Positions 1,842 through 27,818 of a stretch of 32,543 bases of DNA are shown piece by piece. The notes beneath the pieces are model-generated. The model was not told the origin of the DNA. It made no database searches and was given only the letters and a program-made list of their open reading frames with translations. A program made the position numbers and the translations under genes. The DNA is from Veillonellaceae bacterium. GTDB lineage: Bacteria > Bacillota_C > Negativicutes > UBA1444. The stretch lies in the NCBI GenBank assembly GCA_012798135.1, contig JAAZNU010000004.1:1-32543 (forward strand), read 5' to 3'. The number at the start of each line of letters is the position of its first letter. Position 1 is the stretch's first letter.

Positions 1842-3452
1842 ATGAAGTTGACCTTTTTGGGCGCTACCATGGGAGTAACCGGTTCCAGTTTTTTGCTGGA
1901 GATCGGGACCCGGCAAATATTGATCGATTGCGGCATGTTTCAAGGCTCAAAAATTGTCAGCGCCATGAACCGGCGAGAGTTTGCCTTTTCACCGGCCGAA
2001 CTCGACTGTGTGTTATTGACGCACGCTCATATCGACCATAGCGGACTGTTGCCCAAGCTCTGTAGGTCCGGATTCCAGGGATCCATCTATGCGACCAAGG
2101 GAACGATTGAGCTTTGTTCCATCATGTTGCCGGATAGTGCATATATTCAGGAATTCGACGCCGAGATCGAAACCCGCAAGGGAAAAAGAATGGGCCGGCC
2201 GCCGGTGGAACCGTTGTATAGCGTGGAAGAAGCCCAAGCCTGTCTGAAACAGTTTAAGCCGGTCGACTATGAGGCCGCTTTTAGTATTGGCGATGGCGTC
2301 CATGTTCACTTCCACGATGCCGGGCATATTTTAGGCTCGTCGATGTTGGAAATCCATGCGACGGAAGACGGCGAGGAAATCCGATTCCTGTTTTCCGGTG
2401 ATTTGGGCCGGCCGCACCAACCGATTCTGCGGGACCCGGCATATGTCAAAGCCGCTGATTATGTGGTGTTGGAATCCACCTATGGCGACCGGGAGCATGA
2501 GGAAGTCGACTGGGAGGAGAAAATAGCGCAGATTATCAATGAAACCGTGGAACGACGGGGAAATGTGATTATTCCGGCGTTCGCGGTAGGCCGCACCCAG
2601 ATGATTCTATACTATTTGCACCGCTTGTATCATGCCGCCCGCATTCCGGATATTCCGGTGATTATCGACAGCCCTCTGGCCACTGCCGCTACGGCCATTT
2701 TCCGTCGCAATACCCAGTACTACGACAAGGAAGCTCGGGAAATCCTGAAAAATGAGCAGCAGAGTCCGTTGGAGATGCCGCAGTTGCAGTTCACCGTGTC
2801 GGTTGCGGAATCCAAAGCGCTGAACATGTTGGAGGAACCGGCCATCATCATTTCAGCAAGCGGTATGGCGGACGCCGGGCGGATTTTGCATCACTTGAAG
2901 CATAACTTATGGCGGCCGGAAAGCAGCGTATTGTTTGTCGGCTTTCAGGCGGAAGGAAGCTTGGGCCGGCGATTGGTCGAAGGCGGCAAGAAGGTTCGGA
3001 TTATGGGCGAAGAAATCAGTGTTCGGGCGCATATTTATAATTTGAACGGCATGTCGGCCCATGCCGACCGTAATGACATCGTGGATTGGCTGGCTTGTTT
3101 CGAACAAAAGCCAACGCAAATTTTCCTGGTCCATGGCGAACCGACGAGCGCCGAACAGTTAGCGAAGCTTATCGGCCAAAAGCTGGCGGTCCCGGCATAT
3201 ATTCCCCGCTATGGCGATGTTGTCACCTTTGCGGGCCGTTCGTGGCAAGTCGCGCAACTACCGGGGCTGCCGTCGCTGGAACCGGCGGTCCGGCAACTTC
3301 AGGATATTCTGGGCGAACTCGACAGCGCTTGGGCGGAACTCAAGGTGAAACTGGAAAATCTCGTTGCCGCCGATGGTTCAAAGATTGCGGACATCACGGC
3401 AAGGATCGAGAAAATCAAAAAGTTTGTCCGAAAAACATTGGGGGATTTGTAG
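1842..3452 (+). CDS. Metallo-beta-lactamase/beta-CASP RNase (CPSF-like, MBL fold exonuclease)
   Basis: A 536-residue protein with the full metallo-beta-lactamase motif series: THAHIDHSG (His61, His63, Asp65, His66), DAGHILGSS, FSGDLGR, then the beta-CASP insert with ESTYGDREH, PAFAVGRTQ, SASGMADAGR, NGMSAHAD and finally LVHGEP. This is the bacterial CPSF73/Ysh1-like RNase group, which processes RNA using two zinc ions. A C-terminal stretch of about 60 residues looks coiled-coil and is an addition to the catalytic core. GAGGAG precedes the ATG; only 9 bp separate it from murB and 12 bp from sepF, so co-transcription is likely. The exact RNA substrates cannot be read from sequence. Confidence 0.9.
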   Translation: MKLTFLGATMGVTGSSFLLEIGTRQILIDCGMFQGSKIVSAMNRREFAFSPAELDCVLLTHAHIDHSGLLPKLCRSGFQGSIYATKGTIELCSIMLPDSAYIQEFDAEIETRKGKRMGRPPVEPLYSVEEAQACLKQFKPVDYEAAFSIGDGVHVHFHDAGHILGSSMLEIHATEDGEEIRFLFSGDLGRPHQPILRDPAYVKAADYVVLESTYGDREHEEVDWEEKIAQIINETVERRGNVIIPAFAVGRTQMILYYLHRLYHAARIPDIPVIIDSPLATAATAIFRRNTQYYDKEAREILKNEQQSPLEMPQLQFTVSVAESKALNMLEEPAIIISASGMADAGRILHHLKHNLWRPESSVLFVGFQAEGSLGRRLVEGGKKVRIMGEEISVRAHIYNLNGMSAHADRNDIVDWLACFEQKPTQIFLVHGEPTSAEQLAKLIGQKLAVPAYIPRYGDVVTFAGRSWQVAQLPGLPSLEPAVRQLQDILGELDSAWAELKVKLENLVAADGSKIADITARIEKIKKFVRKTLGDL

Positions 3453-8430: not shown

Positions 8431-9615
<1,185 letters not shown>

Positions 9616-9648
9616 GACTTGCTTTTGTCGCCAACCATCGGCTGAGCG

Positions 9649-9681
9649 ATGCGCCGGGGGTCGGAGAGTCCCCCGGCGTAT
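9649..9681 (+). other. Intercistronic hairpin between thiolase and acyl-CoA dehydrogenase genes
   Basis: Perfect 9-bp stem CGCCGGGGG (9652-9660) / CCCCCGGCG (9670-9678) with a 9-base loop, extended by AT/AT. There is no T-run after it, so it looks more like an mRNA-stabilising or processing hairpin than a terminator. Confidence 0.65.
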
Positions 9682-9726
9682 GTATTGCGTTTTCTCTCCG
9701 TCAGAAAAAGAGAGGAGTGTATAAAC

Positions 9727-10866
9727 ATGTTGTACGAATTGACAGAAGATCAAAAGATGATGCAGAAAGTCGCCCACGATTTTGCCGAGAAGCAGGTCGC
9801 TCCCGGTGCGGAAGAACGCGACGAACACGAAACGTTTTCCCGACCGTTGTATGATGAAATGGTCGGCCTCGGCTTGTCGGGAATTTGCTTCCCGGAACAA
9901 TACGGCGGCGCTGATGGCGATGTCCTGAGCTACATTCTGTCTGTGGAGGAAATCAGCAAAGCGGATTCCGGCCTCGGCATTTCCTTGTCGGCGACGGTAT
10001 CGCTGTGCGCCTGGCCAATTTTTGCCTTTGGTACGGAAGAACAAAAAAAGAAATATTTGATTCCGCTGGCGGAAGGAAACAAAATGGGCGCATTCGGACT
10101 GACGGAGCCGGGCGCCGGCACCGATGCAGCGTCTCAGCAAACCGTCGCTGTCCGTGACGGGGACAACTACATCATCAACGGCAGTAAAATTTTCATCACC
10201 AATGCCGGCGAAGCCGAAGTATATGTCGTTTTTGCCATGACGGACAAGTCCAGGGGAGTCAAGGGAATTACCGCATTTATTTTGGAAAAAGGGATGCCGG
10301 GCTTTACTTTTGGCAAGAAGGAACATAAAATGGGGATTAGGTCCTCGCAAACCATGGAGCTGATCTTCCAGGATGTCAAAGTACCTGTTTCCCAGATGCT
10401 CGGCAAAGAGGGCGAAGGCTTCAAGATTGCGATGAGCACGCTGGACGGTGGCCGCATCGGCGTAGCGGCGCAGGCTCTCGGTATTGCCCAGGCGGCTTTT
10501 GACGCGGCGGTCAAGTATTCCAAGGAACGCGTTCAGTTCGGCAAACCGATTTCCGCCAACCAAGCCATCTCGTTCATGATCGCCGACATGGCGACCAAGA
10601 TTGACGCGGCCCGTTTGCTGGTCTATCGGGCGGCAGCCCTCAAGGACGCCGGCAAGCCGTTTTCCAAGGAGGCGGCGATGGCCAAACTGTTCGCTTCGGA
10701 CATGGCGATGGAAGTGACCACCGATGCTGTGCAGATTCTCGGCGGTTACGGCTATATTCGCGAGTACCCGACGGAACGGTACATGCGGGACGCAAAAATC
10801 ACCCAGATCTACGAAGGCACGAACCAAGCTCAGCGTCTGGTCATCGGCGGCGCGGTGCTTCGGTAA
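9727..10866 (+). CDS. bcd: Short-chain acyl-CoA dehydrogenase (butyryl-CoA dehydrogenase type)
   Basis: FAD enzyme interconverting crotonyl-CoA and butyryl-CoA. Seen: an N-terminal helical domain ([24 protein letters not shown]), the FAD-binding beta domain with [14 protein letters not shown] and [15 protein letters not shown], and the C-terminal bundle ending IYEGTNQ, where Glu363 is the catalytic base. The 379-residue length is normal. ATG 9727 is chosen because GAGAGGAGTG precedes it and the family starts there; an in-frame extension to 9649 runs through the hairpin. Directly followed by etfB and etfA, as in bcd-etfBA sets, so a Bcd/Etf complex is likely, possibly electron-bifurcating. Confidence 0.92.
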
Positions 10867-10903
10867 GTATAGTACATTTCAAACGTAAGGAGGAATCCGA
10901 TCA

Positions 10904-11689
10904 ATGGAAATCGTGGTCTGTGTCAAGCAAGTGCCTGACACAACGGAAGTTAAGATCGACCCGGTCAAAAACACGCTCATCCGCGAAGGCGTGCCCAGCA
11001 TCGTCAATCCCTTTGACAAGATTGCGGTGGAGGTTGCCCTGCAACTGAAAGAAAAGCACGGGGGAAAAGTGCGCGTCATTTCGATGGGGCCGCCGCAGGC
11101 GGCGGATGCGCTGAAAGAATGTCTGGCCATGGGCGCCGACGAAGCCGTGCTAATCAGTGACCGTGCCTTTGGCGGCGCGGATACGTTGGCGACAGCCTAT
11201 GCCCTGTCCGCGGCGATCGAAAAGATGGGCCCGGTGGACTTGATTCTCTGCGGCAAACAGGCCATTGACGGCGATACCGCCCAAGTGGGTCCCGGCATTG
11301 CCGAAAATCTGGGGATTCCGCAAATCACTTATGCAGCAAAAATTGAAATTAACGACAACTCGCTTAAAGTGGATCGCGAGCATGAGGACGGCTATGAAAT
11401 CATGGAGACCAAGCTGCCCGCCATGGTAACTGTCGTCAAGTCGATTGCCGAACCGCGATTCCCGACTGTCAAGGGAACGATGAAAGCAAACCGGACCCAG
11501 ATTCCGGTCTGGACGGCTGCAGATATCAATGCCGACGAAAAACGAATCGGCATGCCGGGATCTCCAACCCAGGTGCGTCGGATCTTTACACCGAAGCAAC
11601 GGGTTCAGGGCGAACTGATCCAGGAAGAAAGCGCGCAACAAGCAGTAGCGGTACTGATGCAAAAGCTCAGCGACGCTAAAATAATCTGA
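10904..11689 (+). CDS. etfB: Electron transfer flavoprotein beta subunit
   Basis: EtfB pairs with EtfA to carry electrons to or from acyl-CoA dehydrogenase. Seen: the MEIVVCVKQVPDT start, NPFDKIAVEVALQL, the EtfB signature-type stretch near 125-145 (GKQAIDGDTAQVGPGIAENL) and LPAMVTVVKSIAEPRFPT. Length 261 is standard. AAGGAGG lies ten bases before the ATG, 37 bp after the dehydrogenase and 19 bp before etfA. The clostridial-type EtfB fold and the gene order would fit a bifurcating Etf that binds a second FAD, but that function is inferred. Confidence 0.95.
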   Translation: MEIVVCVKQVPDTTEVKIDPVKNTLIREGVPSIVNPFDKIAVEVALQLKEKHGGKVRVISMGPPQAADALKECLAMGADEAVLISDRAFGGADTLATAYALSAAIEKMGPVDLILCGKQAIDGDTAQVGPGIAENLGIPQITYAAKIEINDNSLKVDREHEDGYEIMETKLPAMVTVVKSIAEPRFPTVKGTMKANRTQIPVWTAADINADEKRIGMPGSPTQVRRIFTPKQRVQGELIQEESAQQAVAVLMQKLSDAKII

Positions 11690-11708
11690 GGCAAGGAGGA
11701 ACAATGAA

Positions 11709-12911
11709 ATGGCTGTAATCGTAAATCAGGAAAAGTGCATTGGTTGCGGCGCTTGTGTTTCTGCTTGCCCGTTCGATGCGATTGTGATGCAGGATGGCAA
11801 AGCCCTTATCACCGAAAAATGCACCATGTGCGGCGCCTGTATTTCCGTATGCCCGGTGGAAGCGATTTATCGGGAAGAAATCGAGCGCGTCGTCGCCATG
11901 GACAAGACCCAATATAAAGGCGTCTGGGTGTTTATTGAGCAAGCCGACGGAACAGTGAAAGGCGTGGCTCACGAATTGCTCGGCGAAGGCCGCAAGCTGG
12001 CCGATGAGCTCGGCGAAGAACTGGCCGGCGTCTTGATCGGTCATCAGGTGGAAGGATTGACCGGCGAACTGTTTGAAAGCGGCGCCGACAAGATCTATCT
12101 GGTGGAAGGCCCGGAATATGAGCACTATAACACGGAAGCCTACACTACTGCGTTTGTTGATTTGATTCAACAATACAAACCGGCGGCCATTCTGGTCGGC
12201 GCGACCAATGACGGCCGGGATCTCGGCCCCCGTATTGCGGCCCGGACCCGCACCGGCCTTTGCGCCGACTGCACCGGTCTTTCTATCGATTCGGAAACCC
12301 GGTTGGTGGTCTGGACACGTCCCGCTTTCGGCGGCAATATCATGGCCGACATCATCTGCCCGGATCATCGTCCGCAAATGGGCACCGTCCGGCCGAAAGT
12401 ATTCAAACGCCCCGTTCCGCAGCCCGGCCGCACCGGTGAACTCGTCAAGGTGGCCAGCAAAGTAAAGGCGGAAGATCTGAAAGTCAAGTTGCTGGAACTT
12501 ATTTCGGTCTGTACCTCTAACTGCAAGTTGGAAGAAGCCGATATCATCGTTTCCGGCGGCCGCGGCATGGGCAAACCGGAAAACTTCTGCGTAGTGGAAG
12601 ACTTGGCCCAGACATTGGGCGGGGCAGTCGGCGCTTCTCGCGCGGCAGTCGATGCCGGCTGGAAACCCGCGCTGCATCAAGTCGGTCAGACGGGTAAAAC
12701 CGTTGGCCCGAAAATTTACTTTGCCTGCGGCATTTCCGGCGCCATTCAGCATTTGGCCGGCATGTCCTCGTCGGATACCATCATTGCCATCAACAAAGAC
12801 CCCGATGCGCCGATCTTCAAGGTTGCCGATTACGGGATCGTGGGCGACGTGATGGAAGTGCTGCCGCTGTTGAATGCGGAATTCAAGAAATACAAAGCGT
12901 CGTGCAAATAA
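11709..12911 (+). CDS. etfA: Electron transfer flavoprotein alpha subunit with N-terminal 2x[4Fe-4S] ferredoxin domain
   Basis: A 400-residue EtfA, longer than the common ~320-340 because residues 1-65 form a bacterial-type ferredoxin domain with two CxxCxxCxxxCP motifs ([12 protein letters not shown] near 10-21 and [12 protein letters not shown] near 38-49). The EtfA core follows, ending with the FAD domain: [47 protein letters not shown] and [20 protein letters not shown]. Known relatives with this extension are the CarE subunit of caffeyl-CoA reductase and lactate-dehydrogenase-linked EtfA in acetogens, where it supports ferredoxin-coupled bifurcation. Start ATG lies eight bases after AAGGAGG; a nearby ATG at 11704 is out of frame and stops at once. 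Confidence 0.95.
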
Positions 12912-19323: not shown

Positions 19324-19408
19324 GTGCTACAATTAGACAGAGATGTCTAACGAAATGGACAATTGGGAATGCTACCAATGCAATCTTGTGGCTGAGGAGG
19401 CTGATCCA

Positions 19409-21511
19409 TTGAGAGTCCGTGATTTGATGAGCAAAAAATTGATTACCTTACATTTGGGAGTTTCGCTGTCGGATGCTGCCCGGATTTTTTTTGAAAAGAA
19501 TATCGACGGTGCGCCGGTTGTCGACGATGACGGGACGCTGATCGGCCTGCTGACCAAAACCCATCTGATTCAGTCCATTGCCCGTCAAGAAGACATCGTG
19601 CGTCAACGGGTATGCGATGTCATGACGTCGCATGTCGTTACGCTCACGGATTCCATGTTGCTCCAGGATCTGCAGCAGAACAACCTGCTGTCCAAATACG
19701 GGCGCTTTCCGGTTGTGAATGCCCAGAACAAACCGATCGGCTTTGTTACGCGTACGGATCTGGTGCGGTACCTGTCGGAAAAATCCGTGTTTATGGCGGA
19801 AGAATTTGAGGCGGTGCTGAATTCCGCCAGTAATGGCGTGATGGCGATCAATTCCGCCGGGATCGTGACGTTGTTCAACCCGGCGGCGCAGGCGATCACC
19901 GGCATGAAAGCGGATAATGTCATCGGCCGGTCTGTCGTCGATGTGATGCCGGATCCCAATGGCTTCATGAGCGTGTTGCAAACCGGTAAGGTGCAGCTGA
20001 ATCAGAAAATCCAGTTTGGTAGCTCGCAGATTATCACCCGGCGTTCGCCGATCATCAAGAACAACAAAATTGTTGGCGCCGTGGCCATTTTCCAGGATGT
20101 CACCGAATTACAGAAGGTGGCGTCGGAGCTCGAAGAAGTCAAGGATCTGAAAAGCACTTTGGACTCGATCGTAAACAGTATTTTCGACTGCATCGTGGTA
20201 GTCGACAAGAACGGCTATGTGACGATGATGAATGATGCGTACGGTGAATTTTTGCACACGGATCCCCAAAAAGCGGTGGGGCGTCACATCACCGATGTGA
20301 TCGAGAACACCCGCATGCACATCGTGGCGCAGACCGGCAAGGCGGAGATCTGCGACATGCAGAAAATCGGCGAGCACAATACTGTGGTTACGCGAATCCC
20401 GATTGTCAAAGACGGTGAAGTGACCGGGGCTGTCGGCAAGATGGTGTTTCGGGATGTTAAGGATTTGCGGGTTTTGGCGCGCAAATTGACTTCCCTGCAG
20501 TCGGAACTGGAATATTACAAGGAAGAGTTACAAAAAGTGCAAGGCGGTCGCTATACGATCGACAGCATCATTGGCTCCGGTGAAAAGATTCAGTGGCTCA
20601 AAATGATCGCTCTGCGCGCCGCCAAAGGAAAATCGACCGTGCTCATTACCGGCGAGAGCGGCACCGGCAAGGAACTGTTCGCCCAAGCGATCCACTATGC
20701 CAGTAGCCGCCGCCATGGACCATTCATTAAGATTAACTGCGCGTCGATCCCGGAAAATCTGCTGGAATCGGAGCTGTTCGGCTATGAGGACGGCGCTTTC
20801 ACTGGCGCCCGCAAAGGAGGCAAGCCCGGAAAGTTCGAACTGGCCAACGGCGGCACGATTTTTTTGGACGAAATTGGCGATATGTCGATGCCAATGCAGG
20901 CCAAATTGCTGCGGGTTCTGCAGGAGCGGGAAGTGGAGCGGGTGGGCGGTACCAAAATTACACCAGTGGACGTTAGGGTAATTGCCGCGACAAACCAGGA
21001 TCTGGAGGCGATGATGAGTCAGGGCACGTTTCGGCAAGATTTGTTCTACCGACTGAACATCATTGCCCTGCATATTCCGCCGTTACGGGAGCGCAGGGAA
21101 GATATGCCGGAATTATGCGAAGCGTTGCTCCGAAAAATCAACCGTAATTTGCAGTTCGACGTGGACGGGGTTTCACCGGCGGCGTTGGCGCTGTTGATGA
21201 AATACGATTGGCCCGGTAATGTCCGGGAGTTGGAGAATGTCTTGGAACGATCGGTGAACCTGATGGACGACGTGGGAGACATCCTGCCGGAGCATCTGCC
21301 GCCGACACTTCGTCGGCCCGGCGCCAAATCGGAAGCGGCGAATCAGAAAATGGCGCAGGAACTTGCAGGAATAATGGAGGATGCAGAGAAACAAGCTATA
21401 TATAAGGCGCTGGAAGCAGCCGGCGGGAATCGAAGCCAGGCGGCAAAAATTTTGGGAATTCATCGTTCCGGCTTTTATCAAAAATTGAGCAAGTATCAAA
21501 TCAAACTTTAA
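19409..21511 (+). CDS. Sigma-54-dependent transcriptional activator with CBS pair and two PAS domains
   Basis: A bacterial enhancer-binding protein of about 700 residues. Order seen: two CBS repeats (about 1-125; [12 protein letters not shown] and [12 protein letters not shown]), PAS 1 (about 125-235), PAS 2 (about 255-355), a short coiled coil, AAA+ domain with Walker A GESGTGKE (415-422), intact GAFTGA sigma-54 contact loop (462-467), Walker B FLDEIGD and [15 protein letters not shown], and a Fis-type helix-turn-helix (about 660-700). CBS pairs commonly bind adenine nucleotides; PAS may bind a small ligand. The TTG start at 19409 has GAGGAGG eight bases upstream; an ATG at 19343 has none. 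It most likely controls the three sigma-54 promoters here, though this is inference. TACAAT at 19327 is a possible -10. Confidence 0.93.
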
Positions 21512-23478: not shown

Positions 23479-24673
23479 CGGCTGGGCGTTGTTGCGGCAA
23501 CAGATCGCGACCGGTGATTACGAACTGGCGCTCCAGGCTATTCCGCACCTGACGGAGTCGAAAGCAACCAAGCTGGCGGACTGTGCGGCGGCGACCCGGC
23601 ATGCCGTTTATGCCCGGCGGCCGGAGCTGGTTTTGGCATTGTTGGAGGGGAGCCGGCGTTTTTTGGATACGGTGCCCCTCCAGGCGTTACCCGAGCTGTT
23701 GGAGACGTTGACGGATCTTCTGGCCGTCTGCATCCGCGAAAAGCAACTGGACCCGGCATGGAAAATAACGGATTTGGGGTTGGGGCTGATCGGTTCCGCC
23801 AATTCAGCGCCGACTGTGGCAACGGCGCCGCTGGTTGTGAAATTTGCGGGACTGGCCGGCCGGTATGCGTTGCGCCGTAATGACGGCGGACGGTTTGCCG
23901 AGATCGCCGCCAAAACGGCAGATTGGGCGACCCGGGACAACAGCGGCCAGTCAGGGACGGCGCTGCTGGAGGCGATCGATTCCTGGCTGCACCGGATTGT
24001 GCGGTACGACCGCGTTGAAGCGGTTCCCGCTGTTTTTGAGGCGTTGTCTGCGCTTTATACCGCGGCCGACAAGAATGCTTTTCTAACACTGTTCCTGCAG
24101 CAATGGCGCGCCGTGGCGGCAATAGCCTGCCTGAATCCCGAGAGCCCGGCGGCGTCTATTCTTGTCGAACAGTTGCTGACTTTTGCTGTTCGCGGCAATG
24201 AGCCGGAACTTTGGCCACCGGTGACGGATAAGATCGGCGAGGTTGCGGCACTGGCGGTAACCCGGCATGGCGTTGTTGCCGGGTTCCCCGTGTTTCGGCC
24301 ACTGCTGGATGTGGGGCGGATTCAGTTGAATGATGAACTGAAATTCGGCACTGGTCCCGATACGGACAACCCACGGCAACGGATCATCCGTTTGGTCTGC
24401 CTCGCGGCGCTCAAGATTGCGGATGTGGCGGCGCATGGCGATATGACGGCGGCAGCCGGTGACAAGATTGAGGAAATGTACCGGACCTGGATGAGCGATC
24501 CCCGGTTTGAGCCGCATGCCCGTTCGATCCAGCGGTTTTGCCAGCTACTGCTGATTTTTTGGTCCAACAACCGAAAACGGGCCGCCCGGAAATGGGCGCC
24601 CCGTGAGAAAGCCTTGTCGGAACCGTTGTTGCTATCGGAAGAAGACCGGCAGAAACTATCCTTCCTGTTGTGA
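23468..24673 (+). CDS. Hypothetical alpha-helical protein downstream of pyk
   Basis: Not recognised. A 401-residue, Ala/Leu-rich, apparently soluble all-helical protein with no signal peptide or membrane segment; the spacing of Leu/Ala patches suggests TPR- or HEAT-like alpha-alpha repeats. Its ATG lies in the last codons of pyk (11-bp overlap) with AAAGGCGAG upstream, so it should be co-translated with pyruvate kinase. Its base composition matches its neighbours. Its last 18 bp overlap, tail to tail, with the acyltransferase gene on the other strand. Confidence 0.75.
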   Translation: MSVSGWALLRQQIATGDYELALQAIPHLTESKATKLADCAAATRHAVYARRPELVLALLEGSRRFLDTVPLQALPELLETLTDLLAVCIREKQLDPAWKITDLGLGLIGSANSAPTVATAPLVVKFAGLAGRYALRRNDGGRFAEIAAKTADWATRDNSGQSGTALLEAIDSWLHRIVRYDRVEAVPAVFEALSALYTAADKNAFLTLFLQQWRAVAAIACLNPESPAASILVEQLLTFAVRGNEPELWPPVTDKIGEVAALAVTRHGVVAGFPVFRPLLDVGRIQLNDELKFGTGPDTDNPRQRIIRLVCLAALKIADVAAHGDMTAAAGDKIEEMYRTWMSDPRFEPHARSIQRFCQLLLIFWSNNRKRAARKWAPREKALSEPLLLSEEDRQKLSFLL

Positions 24674-25747
24674 AAACAAATACCGGCGCGCCGCCAGCCA
24701 GAGCCGGACGGCGCCGAGGCTCGACAGTACCGTGGCCGCATAAAACAGCACGGTGACCGGCACGGTCATCGACCAGCTCAGCGCGGTCAGGCCCTGGGAA
24801 AAATAGTGGATGAACAAAGTGTGAATCCAGAATATCCCGTACGAATGGCGACCTATACTGTTTAGCGCGGATTGAAGCGGGAACGGCAGCGGCCCGTCAA
24901 ACCGCTGCATCAGATACAGGCAGGCGGCCAGCGTGTAGAGCATGCCGCCGGGACTGAGCTGGTGGACGGTGTTGACGGACTGTTCCAACGAGTAGTGCCG
25001 GACCAATAGCAGATAATAATAGTGGGCGAGCAGCAACCCCAAGGACAGGAAAAAGAACAGGCTGACCTGCTGCCGACAGCGGCGCAGCCAGGCCATGATT
25101 TCTTCGTAGCGGACGGCGAAAACGGCGCCGAACAGAAACAAAAACAAGTAATGAACGAGCCACCAGCTCATCCGGTACTGGATCAGCAAATCGAGATAGA
25201 ACAGGCCGGAGTTCGGGCGCAGTTTGTAACTCGAATAGTAGTTGAAAGCGATCTGGCCGGCAAACAGCAGGCCGAGCCAGACTGTCGGCCGGTGCAAAAT
25301 GGTCCGGACCCAACTCCGCCAGAGCGGCATCAGCAGATAAAACCAAAGCAGGATCACTAGAAAATACAGTTGATAGGACGCCATGCCGAAACCGAAGAAC
25401 TGGTAGACTAAAATCGGATACCAGATGCTCCAGTCGCCGGTGAGCCAGGAGTAGTGCAACATATACAAGACCGAGCCGGCCAGATAGGGAAATAAGACCC
25501 GGACAAAGCGGCGTTTGTAAAACCGGCCGGCATCAAACGGCCCATCCAGCGGATATTGGCGAAACAGGGAAAAGGCCGATACGAAGAAAAAAATCGGCAC
25601 ACTGAACCGGCTGACGATTTCCAGCACGGCGAACAGATGGATATTGGCCTGAGGGTTGGACAACAGTTCCGAGCCGGTATGTATACCGACAACGCCCAAC
25701 ATCGCCAGACCACGGATGTATTCAATCGACAGGATTCTTTGATTCAT
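24656..25747 (-). CDS. Acyltransferase 3 family integral membrane protein
   Basis: A 363-residue polytopic protein of the Acyl_transf_3 (OafA/NodX/WecH-like) family with about ten hydrophobic segments. Seen: the family opening IEYIRGLAMLGVVGIHTGSE, where the His in GIHT is the usual catalytic position, then VPIFFFVSAFSLFRQY and the RRFVRVLFPYL segment, and near the end SYGIFWIHTLFIHYF. Members transfer acyl groups to extracytoplasmic sugars or glycans. The substrate is unknown and no polysaccharide genes are nearby. GGGAAGG lies five bases before the ATG. Divergent from the peroxiredoxin gene with only 39 bp between, too little for two separate full promoters without overlap. Confidence 0.85.
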   Translation of the reverse strand: MNQRILSIEYIRGLAMLGVVGIHTGSELLSNPQANIHLFAVLEIVSRFSVPIFFFVSAFSLFRQYPLDGPFDAGRFYKRRFVRVLFPYLAGSVLYMLHYSWLTGDWSIWYPILVYQFFGFGMASYQLYFLVILLWFYLLMPLWRSWVRTILHRPTVWLGLLFAGQIAFNYYSSYKLRPNSGLFYLDLLIQYRMSWWLVHYLFLFLFGAVFAVRYEEIMAWLRRCRQQVSLFFFLSLGLLLAHYYYLLLVRHYSLEQSVNTVHQLSPGGMLYTLAACLYLMQRFDGPLPFPLQSALNSIGRHSYGIFWIHTLFIHYFSQGLTALSWSMTVPVTVLFYAATVLSSLGAVRLWLAARRYLFSQQEG

Positions 25748-25786
25748 AGATACCTTCCCGGAGAAAAAGTTTGAGGGGGTCGAAAC

Positions 25787-26260
25787 ATGGAGACAGTTCA
25801 GGTAGGGGCTACGGCGCCGGTATTTTGTCTGCCGGCAACGAGCGGAGAAATCTGCTTGTCGGATTTTCGATCAAAAAAAGCGGTGGCGCTGTACTTTTAC
25901 CCGAAAGATTCCACGGCCGGTTGAACGGAGGAAGCCCGCGAGTTTCGCGGGATCCATGACGAGCTGACCGCATTGGATGTGGTGGTATTGGGAGTCAGTC
26001 GCGATGATTTGAAATCACACGAAAAATTCATCCGCAAGCTGGAGGGATTGCCGTTTCCATTGCTGTCCGATGTAGAGAGCAAGGTTTGCACGATGTACGA
26101 TGTGATCAAGGAAAAGAACATGTACGGGAAAAAGGTCCGGGGCATTGAGCGATCGACATTTTTGATCGACCGGGCAGGAATCGTTGCCGCCGTCTGGCGC
26201 AAAGTCAAAATCGACGGGCACGCGCTGGCGGTGCTGGCGGCGGCGAAAGAGCTGCCATAG
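25787..26260 (+). CDS. bcp: Selenocysteine-containing peroxiredoxin (BCP/PrxQ family), in-frame TGA read as Sec46
   Basis: Thiol/selenol peroxidase that reduces H2O2 and organic hydroperoxides. Reading through TGA at 25922-25924 gives a 157-residue BCP: VGATAPVFCLPATSGE, YFYPKDSTAG-U-TEEAREFRG, VVVLGVSRDD, FPLLSDVESKVC, MYGKKVRGIERSTFLID. The TGA falls exactly where family members have the peroxidatic Cys of PG-C-T. Both sides stay in one frame with full family similarity, which argues against a frameshift. The usual resolving Cys five residues later is Arg51; other cysteines are 14, 23 and 101, so recycling may use another thiol. GAGGGGGT lies six bases before ATG. A SECIS-type hairpin follows the TGA. 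A naive call would begin at 25973 and lose the active site. Confidence 0.9.
25930..25955 (+). promoter_or_regulatory. Bacterial SECIS-like hairpin
   Basis: Perfect 6-bp stem CCCGCG (25935-25940) / CGCGGG (25946-25951) with loop AGTTT, extended below a small internal loop by GGA (25930-25932) / TCC (25953-25955). The loop starts 16 bases after the TGA and carries G as its second base, matching the general bacterial SECIS model (loop 16-37 bases after UGA, G in the first two loop bases). Confidence 0.8.
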
Positions 26261-26316
26261 GGGATAATGTAACTATCATAAACTATTTTGGCGATGAAGT
26301 GAAGGAGGAAACAAAC

Positions 26317-27174
26317 ATGGGAGCACTGGGGTATATCGATGGGCGGACTGTGGATTTGAAGGAACTGGTCATTGCGATGGAAGATCGCGGTTATCAGTTT
26401 GGCGATGGCGTGTATGAGTACACCAAGGTCTACAATGGCAAGTGCTTTGCGCTGAAACCGCATATCGACCGCTTGTACCGTTCGCTGCGCGAATTGAAGA
26501 TTCCGGCGGTATTTACGTTCGACGAGATGGCCGACATTCATGAACGCTTGATTGCCGAAAGCGGAATCCAGAACGGCGGGATCTATTTGCAGATTACCCG
26601 GGGCTGGGCGCCGCGTGGTCATGCTTTTCCGGAACAGGTGATTCCCTGTCTGACGATGACCATCCGGCCAAGCAATTTCAAACCGGAACAGTGGGAGACG
26701 GGCGTGGGCGTGATTTCGGTTCCGGATGAACGTTGGCTTCGCTGCGACATCAAGTCGCTGAATCTGTTGGGCAACGTTCTCGGCAAACAGAAGGCAAAAG
26801 AAGCCGGTTGTTACGAAGCCATCCAGATTCGGGACGACAAGGTGACGGAAGGAACCAGCAGCAACTTTTTCATCGTGAAAGACGGCGTCCTCTGGACCTT
26901 CCCGGTCGGCAACCTGATTTTGAAAGGCGTGACCCGAACGCTGGTCATGGAAAAAATCTTGCCGGAGCATGATTTGTCGGTCCTGGAAAAAGCCTTTGCC
27001 TTGGATTTCGCCCGGAAAGCCGACGAAGCGTTTCTGAGCGGTACGACAACCGAAATTATGCCTGTCGTCACTATTGACGGCAGACCGGTTGGCGATGGCA
27101 AGCCGGGTCCGATCACCCGCAAGATTCAACAATCCTACCAAGACATGATTGCCCAGGAGTGCAACCTGGCATAA
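26317..27174 (+). CDS. dat: D-amino-acid transaminase (PLP fold type IV)
   Basis: Converts D-alanine and 2-oxoglutarate to pyruvate and D-glutamate, supplying D-amino acids for the cell wall. Seen: EDRGYQFGDGVYE near residue 28, YLQITRGWAPRGHAFPE, the PLP lysine Lys146 in RCDIKSLNLL, EAIQIRDDKVTEGTSSN, KGVTRTLVMEKI and SGTTTEIMPVVTIDG. This runs closely parallel to Bacillus Dat along its length (285 residues); branched-chain transaminase or ADC lyase is less likely because of the Dat-type RGWAPRGH and DIKSLNLL stretches. ATG 26317 follows AAGGAGG by eight bases; a GTG at 26299 would contain that site. Followed by a hairpin terminator. Confidence 0.93.
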   Translation: MGALGYIDGRTVDLKELVIAMEDRGYQFGDGVYEYTKVYNGKCFALKPHIDRLYRSLRELKIPAVFTFDEMADIHERLIAESGIQNGGIYLQITRGWAPRGHAFPEQVIPCLTMTIRPSNFKPEQWETGVGVISVPDERWLRCDIKSLNLLGNVLGKQKAKEAGCYEAIQIRDDKVTEGTSSNFFIVKDGVLWTFPVGNLILKGVTRTLVMEKILPEHDLSVLEKAFALDFARKADEAFLSGTTTEIMPVVTIDGRPVGDGKPGPITRKIQQSYQDMIAQECNLA

Positions 27175-27210
27175 GATCGTTCCCGAACTCTTTTCGTCGA
27201 ATGAGACGGA

Positions 27211-27237
27211 GAAAGGCCGTTTTTCACACGGCCTTTC
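27211..27237 (+). terminator. Probable terminator after dat
   Basis: Perfect 10-bp stem GAAAGGCCGT / ACGGCCTTTC with a 7-base loop TTTTCAC. The downstream T-run is poor (CTGATATT), so termination may be partial, with read-through into the S-component gene. Confidence 0.5.
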
Positions 27238-27275
27238 CTGATATTCCAGCGGATTTTCCCCTGATTGACGGTGAA

Positions 27276-27818
27276 ATGGAGGCGAAACACGGCTTGCCTG
27301 ATCCGAAGCTTCGCAGTTTGTCCCGGACCGCATTGCTGCTGGCATTGACGATCGTGTTCCAGTCGCTGCGCTTTATTGTTCCGTTGCCGGCCATCGCTTC
27401 CACTTTTTTGGTCGGCTCGCTGGTTAACGCCTGTTTGTTGGTGGCGGCATGTCTGACGGGGCGGACGGCGGCGTTTCTGATCGCTTGCGTCACGCCGGTT
27501 ATCGCTTACATTCAGCAGCTATTGCCGCTGCCGGTGTTCATCCTACCGGTCGCGGTCGGCAATGTCTTGTATGTCTGGCTGTTCACTCAGCTGGCGAAAA
27601 TCGGACCGATAGTGCCGGCCATCGGCGGAGCGGCTCTGGGAAAAGCGATCTTTTTTTATCTGGCCTTTTCGCAGCTGTTGAAGTTTATTGAATTGCCGCC
27701 GCCGCTGGCAGCGGGACTTTTGTTCGTCATGGGCTGGCCGCAGTTTGTGACGGGCGTTTTGGGCGCGATTCTGGCTCAATGGGTGGTAAAACGGCTCCGG
27801 CGGTTGGATAAGGAGTAA
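27276..27818 (+). CDS. ECF transporter S component-like membrane protein
   Basis: About 180 residues, five to six hydrophobic segments, opening with LRSLSRTALLLALTIVFQSLRFIVPLP and continuing with FLVGSLVNACLLVA, PVIAYIQQLLPLPVFILPVAVGNVLYV, ALGKAIFFYLAF and AGLLFVMGWPQFVTGVLGAILA. This is the pattern of a clostridial substrate-binding S component that would work with shared EcfA/EcfT energising subunits encoded elsewhere; its vitamin or other ligand is not known. The ATG at 27276 is preferred since it lies after the dat terminator; its ribosome site (GGTGA) is weak. A frame back to GTG 27159 would run through the dat stop and the terminator. Confidence 0.75.
   Translation: MEAKHGLPDPKLRSLSRTALLLALTIVFQSLRFIVPLPAIASTFLVGSLVNACLLVAACLTGRTAAFLIACVTPVIAYIQQLLPLPVFILPVAVGNVLYVWLFTQLAKIGPIVPAIGGAALGKAIFFYLAFSQLLKFIELPPPLAAGLLFVMGWPQFVTGVLGAILAQWVVKRLRRLDKE

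Follow-up and report, generated by a model that had tools for sequence, protein, structure and literature searches.

Previous studies listed the peroxiredoxins of COG1225 (Bcp), with selenocysteine (Sec) in a TxxU motif, as a selenoprotein family, and they appear as such in review tables (PMC9312934, PMC13188914). According to these reports, the family was already known in 2005, with 43 sequences from the Sargasso Sea (PMC1088965), a survey of 2006 gave 12 Sec-Prx proteins and 5 Cys-to-Sec events (PMC1794560), and a study of 2016 gave 91 Sec-Prx proteins in 78 organisms (PMC5029168). The bacterial SECIS (bSECIS) is described as having a small apical loop that holds a guanosine (PMC1088965). 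Among the Cys enzymes, the majority of prokaryotic BCPs are reported to be without a resolving Cys, and the 1-Cys BCP of Burkholderia cenocepacia is described as being reduced by thioredoxin directly and more efficiently via the glutathione/glutaredoxin pathway (PMC8945050). Among the open-licence papers that our literature searches listed, no title or abstract opening dealt with Sec-BCP in Negativicutes or with the loss of the resolving Cys. Here we analyzed a stretch of 32,543 nucleotides (the window), in which the original prediction had placed a Sec peroxiredoxin hidden by an in-frame TGA and had stated that such enzymes are known in some anaerobes, a statement in keeping with the reports on the COG1225 TxxU family (PMC1088965, PMC9312934). 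We consider that a Sec peroxiredoxin is very probably the right reading and by far the best explanation of the gene, because TGA and Cys alternate at the same site among relatives, the hairpin is conserved, purifying selection is seen on both sides of the TGA, and the Sec machinery is present in most TGA relatives.

Reading frame and protein family

The open reading frame at 25787..26260 of the forward strand (ATG at 25787, TAG at 26258-26260) is interrupted by a single in-frame TGA at codon 46 (25922..25924, forward strand). Reading this TGA as a predicted Sec codon gives a BCP/PrxQ peroxiredoxin of 157 residues with Sec46 at the peroxidatic position (T43-A-G-U46). A putative Shine-Dalgarno-like sequence, GAGGGGG, lies on the same strand at 25773..25779, 7 nt upstream of the ATG. 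When promoters and terminators were scanned for, nothing was detected ahead of the Sec-BCP gene and only two promoter-like sites behind it, and a PLSDB search with 25700-27300 gave no match. Under the standard code, a 95-aa ORF starting with TTG at 25973 remains in the same frame, which is the truncated product that the original prediction expected from automated annotation. Indeed, two database proteins, P0046 (95 aa, 90% identical) and P0076 (90 aa, 96% identical), have sequences that start past the TGA and, as protein records alone, suggest that gene callers do truncate such genes.

The read-through protein matched Pfam PF00578 (AhpC-TSA) with 113.7 bits (cut-off 26) in one continuous stretch from residue 6 to 135 (E 6.5e-33), so that the continuity of the family match across the TGA, as originally predicted, held in a single frame. 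The best NCBIfam matches were NF053650 PrxQ (130.8 bits) and NF006960 (121.8 bits), under their equivalog cut-offs of 260 and 140, respectively. By sequence, the best PDB match was 5enu from Burkholderia, followed by Xanthomonas PrxQ, and the alignment with 5enu had no gap at the TGA. When the protein was aligned with BCP homologues, Cys stood opposite the TGA in all 24 other rows of the 25-row alignment, which confirmed that the TGA occupies the site of the peroxidatic Cys. The motif P39-K-D-S-T43-A-G-U46 is the family motif Pxxx(T/S)xxC with Sec for Cys, and Arg72, Arg122 and Arg138 were invariant in the 25 rows, Arg122 being, by its position, the presumed catalytic Arg. The AlphaFold2 model, built with Cys replacing Sec and the 25 aligned rows, had a mean pLDDT of 95.4, and the solved folds nearest to it were 5enu (TM 0.93) and PrxQ/BCP structures. 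Domain and full-length matches, together with the motif and the distant Arg, assign the predicted protein to BCP/PrxQ (COG1225).

Several other features of the window were recorded. Two long antisense ORFs, 25897-27345 (482 aa) and 8707-10827 (706 aa), both on the reverse strand, lie opposite well-supported genes and are probably codon-bias shadows. On the forward strand, 8431-12911 holds a thiolase, an acyl-CoA dehydrogenase, EtfB and a ferredoxin-fused EtfA in a row, a set which resembles acryloyl-CoA reductase/Etf sets below their cut-offs and could encode an electron-bifurcating complex. The forward-strand gene at 19343-21511 encodes a sigma-54 dependent regulator nearest to PrdR (578.7 of 795 bits, below the cut-off) and adjoins CoA-transferase, thiolase and FabG-like genes. 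The product of 1842-3452 (forward strand) is a metallo-beta-lactamase/beta-CASP protein whose best NCBIfam match was type VII Cas14 (444.5 of 800 bits, below the cut-off), and it is more likely a plain beta-CASP nuclease than Cas14.

TGA and Cys at one site among relatives

We searched 380 genomes of the class of G001 (a MAG of the order Selenomonadales, class Negativicutes, and the genome of L023), and 99 of them had a match with an E value of 1e-20 or lower. An inner TGA was flagged in 10 of these 99 genomes; one further locus, L090, was flagged with a TAA, yet its active-site codon was Cys. Across the 30 class loci listed, codon 46 was TGA in 10 and Cys in 20, a pattern opposite to the Cys-free homologues with random stops that the original prediction had named as evidence against itself. 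The nearest class locus, L081, was 79% identical to the window protein and L082 was 73% identical. Wider searches gave matches in 100 of 395 genomes (phylum of G384) and 65 of 391 genomes (class of G385), with 24 additional flagged TGA places, 22 of them Sec and two with a Cys active site; the latter, L210 and L211, had been flagged with TGA by the genome search and were counted as Cys because of their active-site codon.

For the comparisons below, 34 Sec genes (the window gene, 10 from the class, 22 from the wider searches, and L042 from Latescibacterota) were set against 151 Cys genes. The latter comprised the best-scoring loci (at most 30 per wide search) plus L210 and L211, while all flagged TGA places were read, so the Sec and Cys sets were drawn differently. 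The loci of the machinery search (L111-L148), L023 (the same as L096) and the duplicates L008, L019 and L063 were left out of the counts.

The gene is flanked by a divergent neighbour of 363 aa (24656..25747, reverse strand; no NCBIfam match), which we label acylT as a guess, and by a D-amino-acid transaminase gene (26317..27174, forward strand; TIGR01121 over cut-off), whose listed ORF opens with GTG at 26299 and has an ATG at 26317. Homologues of both were found inside the 1.5-kb flank on the corresponding side of all 10 class TGA loci, directly adjacent at 3 loci for the 363-aa neighbour and at 6 for the transaminase, and the remaining TGA loci had space for another gene between the neighbour homologue and Sec-BCP. 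Both homologues were also near the Cys loci L084, L085 and L090. Since TGA and Cys loci share these neighbours, Sec and Cys seem to be exchanged at a single orthologous locus. A 46-row tree showed 8 changes between Sec and Cys, with at least 5 of the changes forced by well-supported branches: the Cys protein P0002 fell in a supported clade (99/97) with the window protein, L081 and L082, and the Cys gene L090 in a supported clade (97/84) with the Sec genes L083 and L087. The tree was unrooted, and therefore no direction of change was inferred. Against L081, dN/dS was 0.133/0.671 before the TGA and 0.136/0.964 from codon 58 onward, values which indicate purifying selection on the codons of both sides.

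SECIS-like hairpin and selenocysteine machinery

Bacterial SECIS elements have an exact loop rule and characteristic sizes and UGA distances. In the window, a SECIS-like hairpin with a 7-bp stem (CCCGCGA/TCGCGGG) is predicted at 25935..25951 of the forward strand, with arms at 25935-25941 and 25945-25951 and the loop GTT at 25942-25944. Its stem starts 10 nt past the TGA, and 17 nt separate the TGA from the loop; the SECIS-like geometry claimed originally was thus found, but not directly after the TGA as had been stated. As a stem-loop near the UGA with a G in a small loop, the predicted hairpin fits the description of a bSECIS. An Rfam search of 25700-26300 at a loose threshold found no SECIS. 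An antisense Moco-II match in the same Rfam search (17.2 bits, gathering score 35) was taken as chance.

The 13-nt core of the hairpin, CGCGAGTTTCGCG (25937..25949, forward strand), has a single exact copy in the window and was identical in all 11 class members (the window and 10 relatives), including one relative with just 53% protein identity. Across codons 47-57, dS was 0.000 against L081 and 0.330 against L082 (11 codons only), compared with 0.964 and 1.948, respectively, for the other codons after the TGA, so synonymous change is apparently depleted across the hairpin codons. When 20,000 synonymous variants were generated at the codon usage of the window, only 49 equalled the stability of the hairpin. 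When each gene was compared with its synonymous shuffles, the mean stability z was -1.50 for the 34 Sec genes and -0.29 for the 151 Cys genes (Mann-Whitney p 2.8e-7, kin counted separately), and 15/34 Sec and 10/151 Cys genes reached the 5% level singly. In the scan for the best hairpin (loop 3-10), -3 kcal/mol or better was reached by 34/34 Sec and 56/151 Cys genes, and a G lay within the first two loop bases in 33/34 and 26/151, respectively (kin counted separately). The hairpin was present in 11/11 class members when a 24-nt stretch was folded, but it belonged to the minimum-energy structure of only 6/11 when the 48 nt that follow the TGA were folded freely. Among ten aligned sequences (L088 and L094 being the same there), 91.4% of cells were paired and one pair was UA in 6 and CG in 3; 5 of the 7 pairs were invariant and uninformative, and 357 of 500 shuffles also reached one double-change pair.

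At the Cys46 codon of L090 (G308), the sequence GCCCGCGGATTTCGTG takes the place of the perfect hairpin of the Sec genes. In the unrooted tree, this gene resembles a reversion from Sec to Cys that has left a decayed SECIS behind.

SelB was over the cut-off in 8/10 class TGA genomes and in 36/370 others (Fisher p 6.7e-7), and SelA, SelD and tRNA-Sec were examined in 26 hand-picked genomes. SelA was over the cut-off in 7/10 class TGA genomes, with two fragments under the cut-off in G319; SelD was over it in 8/10, each of these eight genes itself carrying an in-frame TGA and that of G319 being in two pieces; and tRNA-Sec scored above 65 bits in 8/10. We set the 65-bit line ourselves because matches of about 50 bits occur in genomes without SelA: the Rfam gathering score of 47 was passed by 23/26 genomes, including four near 50 bits without SelA, and by 5/14 control genomes, in which a SelA match was found in E. 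coli alone. Outside the class, SelA was over the cut-off in 22/22 Sec-BCP genomes and 17/26 Cys genomes. In G319, the nearest genome, selA, selB and selD were fragmented or carried a stop, and no tRNA-Sec match passed the gathering score. In G001 and G314, no SelA was found at 1e-40, no SelB over the cut-off, and only sub-cut-off matches to SelD. G001 retains a tRNA-Sec match of 75.5 bits; that of G314, with only 51.3 bits, is over the gathering score but of the doubtful kind, and matches of about 50 bits were also seen in G326, G082, G097 and G095, all without SelA. In G313, the genes for SelA, SelB and SelD are found on the same contig within 18 kb of one another. The absence of a single contig from an assembly could thus take out all three, and this may be the reason for the gaps in G001 and G314.

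Two further observations were made in these genomes. G314 (L091) has a TGA-type BCP with an intact hairpin core, yet no SelA, no SelB over the cut-off and no full SelD were found in it; either the assembly is incomplete or the organism has lost the Sec system. Two SelB matches over the cut-off per genome were present in G303, G304, G302, G307, G296, G334 and G344.

The occurrence of the TGA at the same site in 10 class relatives, the hairpin core identical in 11/11 members, and dN below dS on both sides all argue for a Sec peroxiredoxin, and they also bear on its rivals. A sequencing error with a true codon TGC or TGT, which the original prediction had itself raised, or a recent, dying pseudogene might be suspected since the TGA is one base from a Cys codon and the Cys homologue P0002 is as close as 71%. 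The same TGA in ten other class genomes contradicts an error, both halves of the gene are under apparent purifying selection, and the 90-96% identical database proteins beginning past the TGA (protein records alone) suggest a TGA in closer relatives as well; we therefore regard error or decay as extremely improbable. The post-TGA ORF might instead make its own 95-aa protein from the internal TTG, as proteins of such a kind (P0046 and P0076) exist in databases, but this piece would be without the peroxidatic residue and the strand preceding it, and the pre-TGA codons are conserved with dN below dS, so that a two-gene arrangement appears very improbable. If TGA stood for a different amino acid, for example Trp, throughout the genome, the frame would likewise be open; however, TGA ends 7 of 18 window genes, picked as standard-code ORFs and full length without TGA read-through, and all 66 Trp in them are TGG, which leaves reassignment a vanishingly small probability.

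Proposed catalytic cycle and relation to known enzymes

Besides Sec46, the window protein has only Cys14, Cys23 and Cys101. The residue at +5 is Arg51, and the stretch aligned to the alpha3 resolving position (FIRKLEGLPF) has no Cys, so the enzyme lacks the resolving Cys at +5 (alpha2) or alpha3 that characterizes a two-Cys BCP; a departure from the normal two-Cys cycle, as had been predicted, is likely. The original prediction had also considered this variant, with Arg51 and no +5 Cys, to deserve attention. The residue is indeed Arg, but the missing +5 Cys alone is unremarkable, because 86/151 Cys homologues and most prokaryotic BCPs lack it (PMC8945050, as reported there). Since 59/151 Cys homologues lack both resolving positions and a 1-Cys BCP has been described (PMC8945050), we consider the window enzyme likely to be a one-selenol peroxidase recycled by external thiols.

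In the cycle that we propose, SelB with Sec-tRNA(Sec) would bind the hairpin past the UGA as a bacterial SECIS, and Sec46 would be inserted in place of termination. The Sec46 selenolate, activated by Thr43 and the conserved Arg (Arg122 by position), would reduce H2O2 or an alkyl hydroperoxide and become a selenenic acid. Because Cys is found neither at +5 (alpha2) nor at the alpha3 site that Xanthomonas PrxQ uses, an external thiol, such as thioredoxin or a small thiol, would then reduce this acid directly, in the manner reported for a 1-Cys BCP. As a joint explanation, a BCP/PrxQ peroxiredoxin with Sec46 inserted via SelB and SECIS and cycling as a one-selenol peroxidase through an external thiol is, in our estimate, highly probable, with Sec insertion, activity and reductant all inferred.

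We also considered whether Cys101 could act as an unrecognized resolving residue in a two-residue cycle. In an initial alignment of 12 Sec proteins, Cys101 was the one other Cys that every sequence shared, and it did not vary across the 25 rows, but in the wider set it is present in only 14/34 Sec proteins and is equally common in Cys homologues (82/151). Moreover, of the 20 Sec proteins lacking it, 16 contain no further Cys across the aligned stretch, which makes such a role improbable, and the one-selenol cycle is preferred.

Among all the genes compared, both resolving positions were absent in 33/34 Sec proteins and 59/151 Cys homologues, and no other Cys at all was found in the aligned stretch of 16/34 Sec proteins. 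A resolving Cys was thus present in 1/34 Sec and 92/151 Cys genes (Fisher p 6e-11, related sequences counted apart), the sole exception being L042 (Latescibacterota) with Sec plus the +5 Cys. On a quick 185-row tree, the association of Sec with resolving-Cys loss had the expected direction and was not significant, as the 7 supported independent pairs gave 2.1 the same way, 0.1 opposite and 4.8 undecided. The case for SECIS placement as a family-wide cause of the loss was weakened by our scan, as the +5 codon lies entirely inside the best hairpin in just 17/34 Sec genes and the hairpin begins later in the others. Chemistry is therefore the broader explanation, since a selenenic acid can do without a resolving Cys. 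We tentatively suggest, with rather more doubt than confidence, that Sec gain in BCP goes with loss of the resolving Cys, so that Sec-BCPs would be one-selenol, glutathione-peroxidase-like enzymes. Under the same suggestion, the SECIS of the window lineage would have taken codons +4 to +9 including the +5 site, Arg51 would be maintained by constraint on the RNA no less than on the protein, and Cys members that share this Arg but have a decayed hairpin (L090, which groups with Sec members) would be Sec-to-Cys returns with a SECIS fossil. If this one-selenol rule were true on a larger, kinship-corrected set, it would tie Sec use to resolving-Cys loss and show a coding-region RNA signal limiting active-site residues. 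With the reading of the gene given here, an antioxidant enzyme that had been wrongly annotated is returned to its genome. Sec/Cys exchanges have occurred repeatedly in the lineage, which makes it a good natural series in which to ask what a peroxiredoxin gains from Sec.

Compared with known systems, PrxU (NF040737), a name which we link to Eubacterium acidaminophilum, is likewise a Sec peroxiredoxin of an anaerobe but belongs to another subfamily, to which the window protein scored 56.2 bits (cut-off 270). The PrxQ of Xanthomonas campestris (3gkn, 5iph C84S, 5io2 C48S) shares subfamily and fold with the window protein and has a resolving Cys in helix alpha3, C84, whereas the aligned FIRKLEGLPF is without Cys. 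The BCP-type protein of B. ambifaria (5enu) has the same fold as the window model (TM 0.93, 50% identity), with Cys and not Sec. The 1-Cys BCP of B. cenocepacia, as described (PMC8945050), has Cys and needs no SECIS, whereas the window protein has Sec and is likewise without a Cys at +5 or alpha3. With the Sec-Prx family (COG1225, TxxU), as far as its published descriptions go, the window protein shares the domain, the peroxidatic Sec in TxxU and a small-loop stem-loop with G after the UGA, and it shows no difference in kind. Therefore, the enzyme type is already known, and the window gene is very likely a new, well-supported member of it.
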